From a virus, in IMG/VR virus record IMGVR_UViG_3300044984_003568, positions 1 to 24,452 of that record: a stretch of 24,452 bases of DNA. One strand, 5' to 3'. Positions within the stretch are counted from its first letter, which is position 1, and the number at the start of each line of letters is the position of its first letter. The notes beneath the pieces are model-generated. The model made no database searches. It was not told the DNA's origin and saw nothing but the letters and a program-made list of their open reading frames with translations. Made by a program: the position numbers and the translations under genes. Below are positions 18,259 through 23,298 of this stretch, in pieces.

Positions 18259-19569
18259 CTAGAAGGTTCCAACATTAGCTCTAAAAGTATACAAAGCGTA
18301 TCTAAGAGCGTCAGCCATATGACTAAACTTATCATGAACAGGTTTTTCAGTAACAGATTCTTTGTCACTCCAGCGGTATTGGTCTAAGGTTGCTAGAAGA
18401 TTCTTACATTTAGGATTAACTATTAACTTTTCTTGTTCAATGGTCATCTGAACATAAGCAACACCATCTAGTACAGACTTAGTAGCATTTATAGTTGAGA
18501 TATCAAAATTCATAGCCCAGTCATGTCTGGTTTGAGCAGCAGCAGAGTCAATAAAAATCATCTGAACATCATATTTACTCTCAAGTTCTTTACATGCTAG
18601 AGCGTATTCATTAGTTGTCTTTTGACTTTCTTGATACTCATCTACAGCGTAAAATACTTCACCATTATATCCTAAGACTATCATAGCTGTAGCGTCTTTA
18701 AATCCAATATCTATACCCATAAAAAATTCGAAGGCTGAAGTATCTTCTAGAACATAGCTAAACTTATCAGTATCAAACTTATAAATCTGACCTTCAAAGC
18801 TACTAAAGCTAGCTAGATATTCCTGTTCAAATTTACCATTAGCCATAGTAGCTCTAGCTTCTTCGATATCTTCTAGTGAAACTCTAGGATTCTCATGATA
18901 AGAAGCATGAACTGAAACCCATTTATTAAATGATGGAGAGTCAGAGAATCCGTTATTAAAGTAACCTGCAAACCAGTTCATTCGTCCGCGTGGCGTGGAA
19001 ATAAATATAGCCTTAGAGTTAGGTTTGTCTAGAGTGGGCCTAAGAGCTATTTCAAAGGCTTCTTGTCCATCGCTAGTAAGAGCTGCTTCATCAAATAAAA
19101 TTACAGTATATGAACGGCCTACAACACTGTTTACTTGAGACACACTGCCCATTCTGACAGTTGAACCGTTGGCCAGCTCTAATACGCGATCCTTCATATT
19201 ATCTCGGACCACCTCCAAGTCGAATAGCTTAATTAGTTTTCTCTGTTCCTCGAATGAAATTGTGCTAAGAGAATAATTAGGCGACATAATTAGCGCATGG
19301 CTATTGGGTACCAGGGTTACTAATTGGGCTATTATATTCGATATGGTTGTTTTGCCTATTCTACGGCCTACAGCCGCAACTAGGAACCTGTACTTGGGGC
19401 AATTAATAGCATTAAGCATAGCCAGCTGCGGTCCGTTCAAGTCACCAATGTATCCTTTCTCTTTTAGTAGGCTAAGGTATCTTTCAACCGGTAATTTAAG
19501 GAATCTCTCTTCTACTGGGTATTGCTGCACTTCTGTACTAGAGATTCCCTCTCTGCTTATTTTTAGCAT
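18259..19569 (-). CDS. terL: Terminase large subunit (ATPase and nuclease)
   Basis: This 436-aa protein is the DNA packaging motor. The ATPase half has Walker A at 68-74 (GRRIGKT), Walker B at 157-162 (ILFDEA), and the coupling motif STP at 191-193. The nuclease half has the RNase H-like acidic pattern: D287 in MGIDIGF, D in MIFIDSAAA, and D/H in KFSHMADALRYALY near the end. It binds the prohead portal together with the small terminase. The ATG overlaps the small-subunit stop by seven bases (TTATGCTAA), indicating coupled translation. Length and layout are normal. The HNH genes follow immediately. Confidence 0.96.
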   Translation of the reverse strand: MLKISREGISSTEVQQYPVEERFLKLPVERYLSLLKEKGYIGDLNGPQLAMLNAINCPKYRFLVAAVGRRIGKTTISNIIAQLVTLVPNSHALIMSPNYSLSTISFEEQRKLIKLFDLEVVRDNMKDRVLELANGSTVRMGSVSQVNSVVGRSYTVILFDEAALTSDGQEAFEIALRPTLDKPNSKAIFISTPRGRMNWFAGYFNNGFSDSPSFNKWVSVHASYHENPRVSLEDIEEARATMANGKFEQEYLASFSSFEGQIYKFDTDKFSYVLEDTSAFEFFMGIDIGFKDATAMIVLGYNGEVFYAVDEYQESQKTTNEYALACKELESKYDVQMIFIDSAAAQTRHDWAMNFDISTINATKSVLDGVAYVQMTIEQEKLIVNPKCKNLLATLDQYRWSDKESVTEKPVHDKFSHMADALRYALYTFRANVGTF

Positions 19570-20006
19570 AACAACTTACCTAGTAACTCTGAATAATTAG
19601 AACCGCTAGTATCATTGATTTGCACGTTAGTCTGCTTCTTGATTTCTTTTGCTTTTTCGTGGTCAATCATTAGCTTCATCTCATCAGTTCTCATTTTGTG
19701 CGCTAGAGTAAGTAAATCCGCAATGTCTTTGTTGCTTCCTAGACCTGTCTCTATCATTTCCGACAGCTTTTGGTCAATAAGGTCATCTAATGTTCTAGCA
19801 ATCTTATCTCTATTACGGTATCCAGCAGTGAGATATATGTGGTCTATATAGTTTTTTACTTCTGGCTTTCTTAAATATTGAGACACTTGGAATTCTGCTA
19901 TACCTAAGCGGTGGGCAGTCTCGGGGATTGATTGGGTACTAAGGTATACTTGAACTATTTCAAGTGATTCGGGGGAAATTGGTACAAGGTCGGAGGTAGG
20001 TTTCAT
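19563..20006 (-). CDS. terS: Terminase small subunit
   Basis: This 147-aa protein is the DNA-recognising subunit of terminase. Residues about 25-50 form a helix-turn-helix (ETAHRLGIAEFQVSQYLRKP), followed by a helical oligomerisation part and a C-terminal tail that should touch the large subunit. It is the first gene of the late operon. The ATG at 20006 lacks a clear Shine-Dalgarno site, and the predicted -10 box ends only nine bases upstream, so its message would be almost leaderless. The 900-bp repeat-rich region before it is a natural place for the packaging recognition site it would bind. Confidence 0.88.
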   Translation of the reverse strand: MKPTSDLVPISPESLEIVQVYLSTQSIPETAHRLGIAEFQVSQYLRKPEVKNYIDHIYLTAGYRNRDKIARTLDDLIDQKLSEMIETGLGSNKDIADLLTLAHKMRTDEMKLMIDHEKAKEIKKQTNVQINDTSGSNYSELLGKLLC

Positions 20007-20337: not shown

Positions 20338-20661
20338 GGTGCATCAAAGTCTGCTAAGAATATATTCTACTTCCTAGAAAATCTTTCAAGCGCTAATTAC
20401 TTTAGTAGGTAATAAGGTGCTAGAAATCTTAAGAAATATACTTCCTAGAAATCTTAAGAAGGTCATAGGTGCATCAAATTCTACTTCCTAGAAAATCTTA
20501 AGAAATCTACTTCCTAGAAATCTTAAGAAATCTACTTCCTAGAAATCTTAATTTACCGCATCAAAATCTACTTCCTAGAAAATCTTAATTTACTTTCTAG
20601 AAAACGGTGCATCAAAGGCTACTAAGAATATATTCTACTTCCTAGAAAATCTTAATTTACC
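20338..20661. repeat. Dispersed/tandem AT-rich repeats (core CTACTTCCTAGAAATCTTAA)
   Basis: Copies of the core begin at about 20367, 20439, 20481, 20507, 20532, 20568 and 20635, with partial ones at 20418 and 20591. Spacing is 25-26 bp where copies adjoin and wider where GGTGCATCAAA-containing spacers intervene. A 48-bp composite unit occurs at 20338-20385 and again at 20606-20653 with two differences. The word TCTTAAGA within the unit is palindromic. Confidence 0.9.
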
Positions 20662-20667
20662 GCACGC

Positions 20668-20720
20668 GGGTGTGCACTCACCCTGGGCGATTTTTCGGGT
20701 CTGAGAACCCCCCTAGGGTG
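20668..20720. other. GC-rich island of inverted repeats next to the iterons
   Basis: In otherwise AT-rich DNA, GGGTG-TGCACT-CACCC (20668-20683), GGGT-CTGAGA-ACCC (20697-20710) and the palindrome CCCTAGGG (20711-20718) follow one another, and CACCCT / AGGGTG also pair across the whole span. There is no U run to make a terminator. A cohesive-end or protein-binding site is possible. Confidence 0.55.
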
Positions 20721-20856
20721 AACAAGGTAAGGCGAACAAGGTAAGGTGAAGACCATAAGGTGAAGACCTTAAGGTGAACAAGGTAAGGTGAACAAGGTAA
20801 GGTGAAGACCTTAAGGTGAACAAGGTAAGGTGAACAAGGTAAGGTCAAGACCTTAA
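20717..20856. repeat. Ten contiguous 14-bp iterons of two types
   Basis: Ten units of exactly 14 bp run without a gap. Type A is GGTGAACAAGGTAA and type B is GGTGAAGACCTTAA. The order on the plus strand is A, A', B', B, A, A, B, A, A, B*, where primes mark single-base variants. Type B creates small palindromes (AAGGT-GAAG-ACCTT and CCTTAAGG) that A lacks. The array ends 12 bp from the parS-type palindrome. Confidence 0.95.
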
Positions 20857-20867
20857 GGTAACAGGAT

Positions 20868-20897
20868 GCTACATTGTTTCACGTGAAACAATGTAGC
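20868..20897. promoter_or_regulatory. parS-type centromere site inside a 30-bp perfect palindrome
   Basis: The 16 bp at 20875-20890, TGTTTCACGTGAAACA, match the consensus bacterial chromosomal parS site recognised by ParB/Spo0J. The match is embedded in a perfect 30-bp palindrome (centre between 20882 and 20883). It lies 11 bp after the end of the A1-like gene in message direction, but with no loop and no U run it is a poor terminator. No parA or parB gene is in the window, so ParB would have to come from the host or from elsewhere on the phage genome. Confidence 0.85.
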
Positions 20898-20908
20898 CTA
20901 AGATTATA

Positions 20909-22525
20909 TTATTTAAAAATTATTTGTCTACCTCCATTCGGCCAAGTAACAACTGACGCTATACGCCAGCTACTGGCTCCAGTGTTATATCCTAGGTCTA
21001 ATGATGCCAATACACCACCAACGTACACTTTTCCAACTATTTCTGGTGTATGAGTGTGCCCACTATTTAATGCTATTCCTAGGGATGCTAACCCCTTGGG
21101 ACTACCCCGGCTGCCATTAGTTCCGTGATGCCCGTGATTGCCGTGTTCCACGCCCGCGATCATTACGCTATCATCAGTTTTATGAAAAACTACATCATCT
21201 CTAATATACTGCAATCCATTGTCGAATATATCTTTTACTGTGCCATTATTAAACTTTAAACAATACTCAAGTATATTAAAATTAGCATCATAAGCATTTT
21301 GGTAACATGCTAACATCGCCCATAAATAAAATTCAGCGTTAATGGGGTCTAATCTAAAATCTTTTATTTCTTTTAAATACTTTAAGAGGGCCAAATCATG
21401 GTTACTTTCGATCACGATAATGTTACCATCGTACTGAAAATTATTTAAAACACTAATAACTTTATTTAAATCACCAATAATACTTTGTTTAGCTTTATCA
21501 TTATTGTAAATAAAAAGCGGATCTTTTATATTATGGTGGTTTCTACTACTGAAGTCGCATAAATCGTGTAAGATAAGATTATCTGGCTTAAAGCGTGCAA
21601 TTAAATCATTTGCATGATTTAAGTTAAACTTATCCATCTTCTCAGCATGAATATCACCAAATTGTAACGTGGATGCTGGTATATTATGTTCTATTCTGTC
21701 TGGATAGAATGCTATACCTTCATCGATAAAGCATCCGTTAATAAATTCTAGTTGCCTTACAGAATGTATACCCTCATTTATTTCAATAACTAGTGCTCCA
21801 AAGTTATGTAAACTCTCAGCGGATACTCCGATGCGCCTTTGAATATAATTCATCGCCGTTAATGTACCCGTTGAATATAAAATTTTGCCAGCATCGCTAT
21901 TTTTTAGCGAAGCGGTGCATTTTAATGCAATTTTACTAGCAGGTATAATGCAATCTACTCCACAAGGCGACACTGAATTGAATCCGTTTAATGGATATTG
22001 AACCGTTGGTAATATATGAGCTTTTCCAATAAACATCAAGTTATTGGATAACATAATGTTATCCCTTATTATAAACTTTGAAATCCTAGGATCAAAATAT
22101 ACACTTTCGGAGGATATATCGTCAGGCTGCGCGAAGGCGTTTTTATTATATAATATCTCCCCTAAAATAATTTTTGCTTTTTTATATTCTACGTAACGCA
22201 TTAGCGCAGCGTAAAAATCATTATTTAAGTCGGTATTGTTCTGAACGGCACTAACGACGAATATATTGCCTTCTATATTATCAATGGTTTTTTCAGTATA
22301 CCCATTAGAGATAGGCTTTTCTAATTCAGCTAAAAGGCGATTATTCGCCTTCTTTTCCGATTTTAACTTTCGCTTTTCAATTTCCTGATTTAATATATCA
22401 GAAATAAAATCAGGGCTTTTAGGAAAAGACGCGAGTAGTTCGTATATAATCGCTTCTTTTTTCTCTGATTTTTTAGCTTTAAAAAAGCCTAATTTTGAGG
22501 CTGCTAGTATAATTTGGTTTTTCAT
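20909..22525 (-). CDS. T5 A1-like metallophosphoesterase (DNA transfer / pre-early protein)
   Basis: This 538-aa protein has the full calcineurin-like metallophosphoesterase motif set in its C-terminal half: GDIH at 290-293, HD at 320-321, SNHD at 374-377, H461 and H464 (GVEHGNHGHHG), and GHTH at 489-492. The N-terminal half (VVSAVQNNTDLNNDFYAALMRY, ILPTVQYPLNGFNS, ILYSTGTLTAMNYIQRRIG) is the long, distinctive region of the phage A1 family. T5 A1 (about 550 aa, from memory) is needed for host DNA breakdown and for completing DNA entry. An AAGGG ribosome site precedes the ATG, three bases after the stop of the membrane-protein gene. Word use differs from the structural block (GATC common, CTAG less so), suggesting separate ancestry. 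Family assignment is from recalled patterns. Confidence 0.82.
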   Translation of the reverse strand: MKNQIILAASKLGFFKAKKSEKKEAIIYELLASFPKSPDFISDILNQEIEKRKLKSEKKANNRLLAELEKPISNGYTEKTIDNIEGNIFVVSAVQNNTDLNNDFYAALMRYVEYKKAKIILGEILYNKNAFAQPDDISSESVYFDPRISKFIIRDNIMLSNNLMFIGKAHILPTVQYPLNGFNSVSPCGVDCIIPASKIALKCTASLKNSDAGKILYSTGTLTAMNYIQRRIGVSAESLHNFGALVIEINEGIHSVRQLEFINGCFIDEGIAFYPDRIEHNIPASTLQFGDIHAEKMDKFNLNHANDLIARFKPDNLILHDLCDFSSRNHHNIKDPLFIYNNDKAKQSIIGDLNKVISVLNNFQYDGNIIVIESNHDLALLKYLKEIKDFRLDPINAEFYLWAMLACYQNAYDANFNILEYCLKFNNGTVKDIFDNGLQYIRDDVVFHKTDDSVMIAGVEHGNHGHHGTNGSRGSPKGLASLGIALNSGHTHTPEIVGKVYVGGVLASLDLGYNTGASSWRIASVVTWPNGGRQIIFK

Positions 22526-22528
22526 AAT

Positions 22529-22792
22529 TTAACCCTTTTTATGGTAAAAAAACATAACGAATAATCCGCCAATTGCCGATCCGGTTCCTGCGAATAATAG
22601 AGTGATATATTCGCCATTAAGCACTAGTGACGCATACGTTCCCACTACTAGCGCATCAAAAATAGTAAAAATGTAGGATGTAAAAAACGCTCTTACATAG
22701 TATCCACGAGTAACATTTAATTGTTGCGCTACTCTAATGCCCACGCTACCCGCAGTAAGGGCGACGATTCCAAGATATGATAAATAATCCAT
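22529..22792 (-). CDS. Small membrane protein with three helices, in A1/A2 operon
   Basis: This 87-aa protein has three hydrophobic helices, at about 5-18, 36-58 and 63-83, with little outside them. The last is Gly-rich (FAGTGSAIGGLFVMFFYHKKG) and ends in a basic tail. It lies between the A2-like and A1-like genes, three bases before the latter, with an AGGAT ribosome site. The function is not recognised. In context it could help DNA entry, membrane anchoring of the transfer proteins, or exclusion of other phages. A holin is less likely so far from any lysis gene. Confidence 0.75.
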   Translation of the reverse strand: MDYLSYLGIVALTAGSVGIRVAQQLNVTRGYYVRAFFTSYIFTIFDALVVGTYASLVLNGEYITLLFAGTGSAIGGLFVMFFYHKKG

Positions 22793-22812: not shown

Positions 22813-22906
22813 TACCCTGATTATATAATCAGGGTAAAAAAATCCGGTATAGACTAGAATAACCGGAAAAACGAATAGGATATAAAATAGGGCATATTTT
22901 ATATCC
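22813..22906. other. Three consecutive hairpins between A2-like and membrane-protein genes
   Basis: The 134-bp gap holds a 24-bp perfect palindrome (22813-22836, core CCCTGATTATATAATCAGGG) next to an A7 run, a 6-bp stem TCCGGT / ACCGGA around 22847-22866, and an 11-bp stem GGATATAAAAT / ATTTTATATCC (22878-22906). In message direction the first-met stem has no U run; the last is followed by TATTTTATAG, a weak terminator tail. Confidence 0.6.
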
Positions 22907-22926: not shown

Positions 22927-23298
22927 TTATTCGCTAACAGTTTGAAATTGTTCCACTGCCAGGCGTTTAAATTCGCTCAATTCTGATAAGACTTTCAAAA
23001 TCGCCTTCAAGGTTTCTTTGTTACTACGCGATAAACTTTCCAACTGTTCTGCGCTTTGTTCCGGCAGAAACAGCGCGATTTGATCTGTCAAATCGCTTTT
23101 CTTAGCTACCGGTTCACCTCGCTTTGTCTTATATTCTTTTGGCTTGTATATTCCAAGCCGGGACAGTTTAGCGATCAGACTTGCCGGTTTTTTCCCCATA
23201 ATCGAAGAAATTTCATCAACACTTTTTCCAGCCCCATACAACTCACACAACTGTGAGGTTTGTTCTTCAGTATAATTTACAACAGTTTTTTCAGCCAT
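22927..23298 (-). CDS. T5 A2-like small DNA-binding protein
   Basis: This 123-aa protein begins with a helix-turn-helix (YTEEQTSQLCELYGAGKSVDEISSIMGKKPASLIAKLSRLGIY, about 9-52) followed by the basic segment KPKEYKTKRGEPVAKK. This pattern of an SxxSLIAKLSRxGIY helix and YKTKxGE is seen in small phage proteins related, as I recall, to T5 A2, a pre-early DNA-binding protein of about 135 aa that acts with A1 in second-step DNA transfer. The C-terminal half is helical and Leu-rich, probably for dimers. An AAGGA site lies about 11 bases before the ATG. The pairing with an A1-like gene in the same operon supports the call; alone it would be a generic HTH regulator. Confidence 0.65.
   Translation of the reverse strand: MAEKTVVNYTEEQTSQLCELYGAGKSVDEISSIMGKKPASLIAKLSRLGIYKPKEYKTKRGEPVAKKSDLTDQIALFLPEQSAEQLESLSRSNKETLKAILKVLSELSEFKRLAVEQFQTVSE

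Follow-up and report, generated by a model that had tools for sequence, protein, structure and literature searches.

Chromosomal ParB is a clamp protein whose loading at parS depends on CTP and which then spreads along the DNA. The parS site has a 16-bp palindromic consensus, NGTTNCACGTGAAACN (PMC7022226), and chromosome II of vibrios carries the ParB2 centromere parS2, TTTACANTGTAAA (consensus in PMC7022226), a sequence described as limited to vibrios and photobacteria (PMC3141006) and from which spreading ParB2 can silence promoters (PMC3688505). The only precedent found for phages using host ParB, in a literature search that covered subscription journals thinly, was SGI1, a mobile element whose parS-like sites use the ParB of another replicon in the IncC parABS system and mimic the plasmid parS for the stability of the element itself and for plasmid expulsion (PMC10954446). 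The literature searched yielded no account of ParB bound to phage sites like those described here.

The pre-early DNA is the first part of a T5-like phage genome to enter the cell; degradation of the host DNA requires A1, second-step transfer requires both A1 and A2, and the proposed injection stop signal contains palindromes and repeats that are thought to contact host components (PMC13250531). For these phages, it has long been asked how DNA entry pauses and resumes and what host factors act on the DNA that enters first. Here, we describe a T5-like phage locus that may, like SGI1, offer a parS-like site to a ParB encoded elsewhere, but whose site is a chromosomal parS at the pre-early end rather than a mimic of a plasmid one. 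The sites in this phage and in its Vibrio relatives are identical to the consensus sequences of chromosomal parS and parS2, whereas the phages have a single site or few sites with no parAB seen beside them, and the lineage studied here embeds its site in a longer palindrome. Palindromes and repeats at the A1/A2 boundary, with a proposed host contact, are shared with T5, in its injection stop signal and its pre-early terminal repeat, but the T5 genome contains no exact parS core, and its stop signal has been described in terms of repeats, palindromes, and DnaA boxes (PMC13250531).

The window, by which we mean the whole stretch of 24,452 nucleotides analysed, is an incomplete linear IMG/VR virus fragment and, judged by its genes, is part of a T5-like phage whose full genome is probably about 110 kb. 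All long genes lie on the minus strand, and the T5-like (Demerecviridae-type) order is present, with A1 beside terS/terL, portal, and protease/capsid. The order runs from lambda-type tail genes through the tail tube (closest to T5-like ones), a fused protease-capsid, portal, and HNH genes to the terminase large subunit (18259-19569, minus strand; nearest isolates Vibrio T5-like phages, 49%) and small subunit (19563-20006, minus strand; phrog_3802, 1e-40), beyond which ~900 bp of non-coding DNA with repeats and the palindrome precede A1, a holin-like gene, and an HTH gene. The A1-like pre-early DNA-transfer protein (538 aa; 20909-22525, minus strand; phrog_1745, E=1e-139) shares 27-36% identity with multiply aligned A1 proteins and about 37% with its best tblastn matches, with Enterobacterales T5-like phages closest. 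The small holin-like protein (22529-22792, minus strand; phrog_7045, 2e-4) sits between A1 and the A2-like gene, and A2's place is taken by a small D5/GcrA-like HTH DNA-binding protein (22927-23298, minus strand; phrog_323, 3e-5) whose GcrA match was under the cut-off. Family searches of most window proteins returned structural, packaging, HNH/endonuclease, and A1/A2-type matches, and no partition, replication, or repressor genes were seen in the window. Separately, a 24-bp palindrome, TACCCTGATTATATAATCAGGGTA, lies between the A2-like and holin-like genes (22813-22836) and also occurs in the relative L002 (998-1021), and about four perfect 38-bp tandem repeats lie close to the contig end (24062-24210).

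The longest palindrome of the window is GCTACATTGTTTCACGTGAAACAATGTAGC (20868-20897), a perfect 30-bp palindrome with 15-bp arms that is intergenic, with the stop codon of A1 ~12 bp away. Centred within it, at 20875-20890, is the exact bacterial parS TGTTTCACGTGAAACA, which fits the chromosomal consensus with 0 mismatches; nowhere else in the window is there a match at ≤3 mismatches. The original prediction had named this exact core, the perfect palindrome beside a repeat array, and the improbability of a chance match, and all three were borne out. The adjoining array is a 14-bp tandem repeat (GGTGAACAAGGTAA, 20717-20863), and a second, degenerate and AT-rich array with a unit of ~25 bp lies at 20420-20551. 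An exact 16-mer is expected ~9e-6 times in the window from base composition and the 12-base-specified parS core appeared in 0/1000 dinucleotide shuffles, which, together with the single hit at ≤3 mismatches, rules out chance. The parS2 motif of Vibrio chromosome II is absent from the window. The extended palindrome was absent from the genome collection searched, which argues against a copy taken from a host chromosome and means that it points to no host; the parS consensus is that of most bacteria. A promoter-like TAGACA-16-TATAAT (20903-20930, minus strand) has its predicted start at the palindrome edge, and was set aside as a conserved feature because it is not kept in L002.

L002 shares structural genes that are ~95% identical to those of the window, and other genes replace A1, so that its pre-early genes are different. 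At the same junction it carries TACGCTACATCGTTCCACGTGGAACGATGTAGCGTA, a 36-bp palindrome in which four of the 30 shared bases differ from the window; these pair up as two compensatory changes, at parS positions 1/16 and 5/12, and turn the core into GTTCCACGTGGAAC. This is the core of the best-bound Pseudomonas aeruginosa parS sites (PMC4368675) and of the Myxococcus xanthus parS consensus (PMC7022226), and the site has therefore moved between two canonical parS forms. The adjoining non-coding DNA that flanks the L002 palindrome has diverged from the window and is only partly alignable, so the pattern that had been proposed as a sign of function, a conserved core within drifting flanks, holds for this pair in that the core remains a canonical parS. 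These changes are consistent with a ParB constraint, and, comprising only two pair changes, they fit a plain palindrome constraint as well.

A profile scan detected no ParB_N domain in the 24-kb window, in L002, or in 23 T5-like records scanned in full, with a positive control that worked, and a phage-encoded ParB is unlikely on the basis of these 25 records. The predicted absence of parA/parB nearby agrees with the lack of ParB_N in the window; the record is incomplete, and the statement therefore spans only 24 kb of this phage.

To place the site among relatives, 25 whole A1-bearing or T5-like records were searched for parS and parS2 (14 Vibrio and 11 non-Vibrio, the latter comprising six Enterobacterales, three Aeromonas, one Rhizobium, and one Paracoccus phage), and two more A1-bearing phages (Brevundimonas and Flavobacterium) were searched for parS only. 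Vibrio cholerae phage phi 3 was the sole phage with exact parS cores (GTTNCACGTGNAAC). Each of its terminal repeats has two, one in the dmp/gp002 gap and one in the A1/A2 gap, the latter gap also carrying two parS2 copies, with one parS 20 bp from the parS2 pair; the chromosome-I motif appeared in 0/1000 shuffles, and the mean for parS2 was 0.003. Exact parS2, in contrast to its absence from all 11 non-Vibrio phages, was present in 14/14 Vibrio T5-like genomes (Fisher's exact p = 2e-7, a value that ignores kinship and overstates independence), and since the Vibrio phages are related, these are not 14 independent events. Each Vibrio genome has 1-4 distinct parS2 sites, or more if the record has both terminal repeats, and the sites are mostly paired, with a spacing of mostly 23-29 bp. 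They are intergenic around A1/A2 in PG07, VspSw_1, pVp-1, phi 3, JSF10, JSF12, Morian, and 70E35-1, the Vibrio phages whose gene positions were seen and on which this placement rests, and those of phi 3 fall inside its annotated terminal repeat. When the phi 3 A1/A2 gap served as blastn query, 347 Vibrio phage records came up, and most of the matches listed align along the paired-site stretch. At the sequence level, the Vibrio T5-like phages show the SGI1-type arrangement, with sites that match the resident ParB and no ParB_N domain detected in the phages scanned. In JSF10 and JSF12 (L152 and L153), close relatives of phi 3, both sites of the chromosome-I type read CATGTG, versus CACGTG in phi 3, while the parS2 sites stay. 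Loss of the parS core from a retained palindrome, named in the original prediction as evidence against it, is absent in L002, although the JSF10 and JSF12 sites have changed at the central CG. The Aeromonas T5-like phages contained neither parS nor parS2. As a compact instance, phi 3 (NC_028895.1, L151) brings one chromosome-I parS and two parS2 sites together within ~60 bp between A1 and A2 (2935-2996).

Across IMG/VR, the parS 16-mer was found in at least 120 stretches versus 20 for a control palindrome of the same composition. Among parS carriers, 53% of the sites lay outside ORFs, though ORFs cover 91% of the sequence, compared with 25% for the control, and ParB_N was above the cut-off in 1/50 carriers. 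These figures lend support, short of proof, to the use of host ParB, given contigs that may include host contamination. Several viral contigs (L019, L046, L055, L089, L118, and others) have at least three parS cores within a few kb, and some of these multi-parS contigs may be phage-plasmids, or origin regions of bacteria, that were classed as viral. With a single A1 sequence as query, IMG/VR gave no matches, and alignments were therefore used instead. Of 160 IMG/VR loci surrounding a T5-like A1 or terL gene, many of them fragments or from hosts without ParB, none had an exact parS and four had a single TTTACATTGTAAA, so that the feature is confined to particular lineages. A search of all IMG/VR for paired parS2 DNA returned 18 stretches, nine of which code for a protein related to phi 3 A1, and exact paired parS2 was also seen in L368, L370, L365, and L375, where no A1 relative was detected. 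T5-like contigs in genome bins gave six matches, four of them in Gammaproteobacteria MAGs and none carrying parS or parS2; a host call from these bins is weak, since contigs of lytic phages may have been assigned to the wrong bin.

PG07 and VspSw_1 have the order A1 - dmp - terS - terL, as in the window, and the right terminal repeat of phi 3 starts between terS and dmp; on this basis, the probable place of the palindrome is the left terminal-repeat end or its vicinity, within first-step-transfer DNA. With moderate confidence, we favor the explanation that host ParB is used, with the palindrome serving as an orphan site for ParB loading at the pre-early end of the phage genome, probably the end that enters first. 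The phage would supply the site alone and the host the protein. Once the DNA is inside the cell, host chromosomal ParB would bind the palindrome and build a partition complex on the phage end, placing the A1/A2 end under host ParB control around the pause between first- and second-step transfer, such that this end would be held and placed with respect to the host nucleoid, its pre-early genes would be silenced, or both. We infer ParB binding, the position within the window phage's terminal repeat, and all downstream effects from sequence. Among those effects, positioning or entry would be the leading candidate, if short of an even chance, silencing of the pre-early region a serious contender, titration of ParB unlikely, and some other effect more unlikely still. 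The suggestion that the phage borrows host ParB at the A1-terS junction is thus supported by the canonical parS kept in L002, the host-matched Vibrio sites, and the lack of a ParB domain, and its plasmid-like prophage part is not. Weighing against the favored explanation are the most frequent state of T5-like IMG/VR contigs around A1/terL, which is to have neither parS nor parS2, the CATGTG change in JSF10 and JSF12, the Aeromonas phages without sites, and the kinship of the Vibrio phages. A bolder version is speculative and improbable: T5-like phages of ParB-bearing hosts would carry host-matched centromeres as a sensor or switch, with ParB freed as A1-driven degradation destroys the host chromosome, then loading on the phage end, shutting the pre-early genes, and helping to commit second-step transfer.

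Part of the evidence would be expected equally if the element had been selected as a palindrome, either as an RNA hairpin that ends the A1 transcript or as a DNA hairpin or cruciform at the genome end serving concatemer processing or entry, with the parS likeness secondary. The perfect 30-36-bp palindrome, a strong RNA fold (z = -5.8 in the window, minus strand; -9.1 in L002), and the compensatory nature of the L002 changes all suit this account, as do the long palindromes that Enterobacterales T5-like phages also have around A1/A2. To our knowledge, the Enterobacterales hosts of T5-like phages, T5's host included, are without ParB. However, an intrinsic terminator, i.e., a stem-loop with a T run, was rejected, as neither strand has the T run and a terminator scan gave 0 sites. 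Further, chance would give a free palindrome the 8-base parS half-site only about once in 65,000, both L002 changes produce another canonical parS, and the phi 3 parS cores have short arms only, and we regard selection for the palindrome alone as improbable. Even so, the 15-bp arms (18 in L002) and conserved flanks GCTACAT exceed what ParB needs, and a second constraint is called for. It is slightly less credible that the sites are operators of a phage-encoded regulator, such as the A2-like HTH protein, with a fortuitous centromere likeness. They are intergenic within the pre-early gene block, the paired Vibrio sites are mostly 23-29 bp apart, and an HTH protein is encoded close by, but the two motifs of phi 3 match both different centromeres of its own host, and the motif varies with the host while A1/A2 stay, being the universal parS in the window and parS2 in the Vibrio relatives.

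Replicating phage genomes could act as decoys that titrate ParB off the host chromosome and disturb segregation, in line with sites in phages without any ParB of their own and with the takeover of the host and destruction of its DNA by T5-like phages (PMC13250531). Yet there are few sites per terminal repeat, clustered by A1/A2 instead of spread genome-wide, and because the host chromosome is destroyed anyway, titration would gain little, which makes a decoy very unlikely. Least credible of all is persistence as a plasmid-like prophage that uses the site for segregation: parS can stabilise plasmids given ParAB (PMC4368675, PMC10954446), but no replication, repressor, or partition genes were seen in the 24-kb window. 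T5-like phages are, moreover, virulent, and this part of the original prediction is unsupported.

The parS of the window phage and the host-matched sites of its Vibrio cousins suggest that these viruses borrow the host's chromosome-segregation protein, which, if true, would represent viral use of bacterial chromosome segregation by phages without a partition protein of their own. Such centromeres allow the DNA-entry question to be approached through a specific host protein and a specific site, and parS2 in Vibrio phages provides a sequence-based clue to phage hosts.

Several additional observations were made. Enterobacterales T5-like loci (L135, L141, and others) carry recurrent long palindromes, TAGTGGGGAATATTCCCCACTA and GATTAACATTATGTTAATC, around A1/A2, and Vibrio phage Rostov 7 (MK575466.1, L352) has a weak match to the paired-parS2 stretch near an integrase gene. 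In L228, two similar units (204-340 and 1517-1644) each comprise a perfect TTGACA-18-TATAAT promoter, a stem-loop, a GTTTCATGTGAAAC palindrome, and a terminator-like hairpin, and look like two related small RNA genes. Its two parS-like CATGTG sites lie behind perfect sigma-70-type promoters and stem-loops, which makes an RNA role possible in L228.
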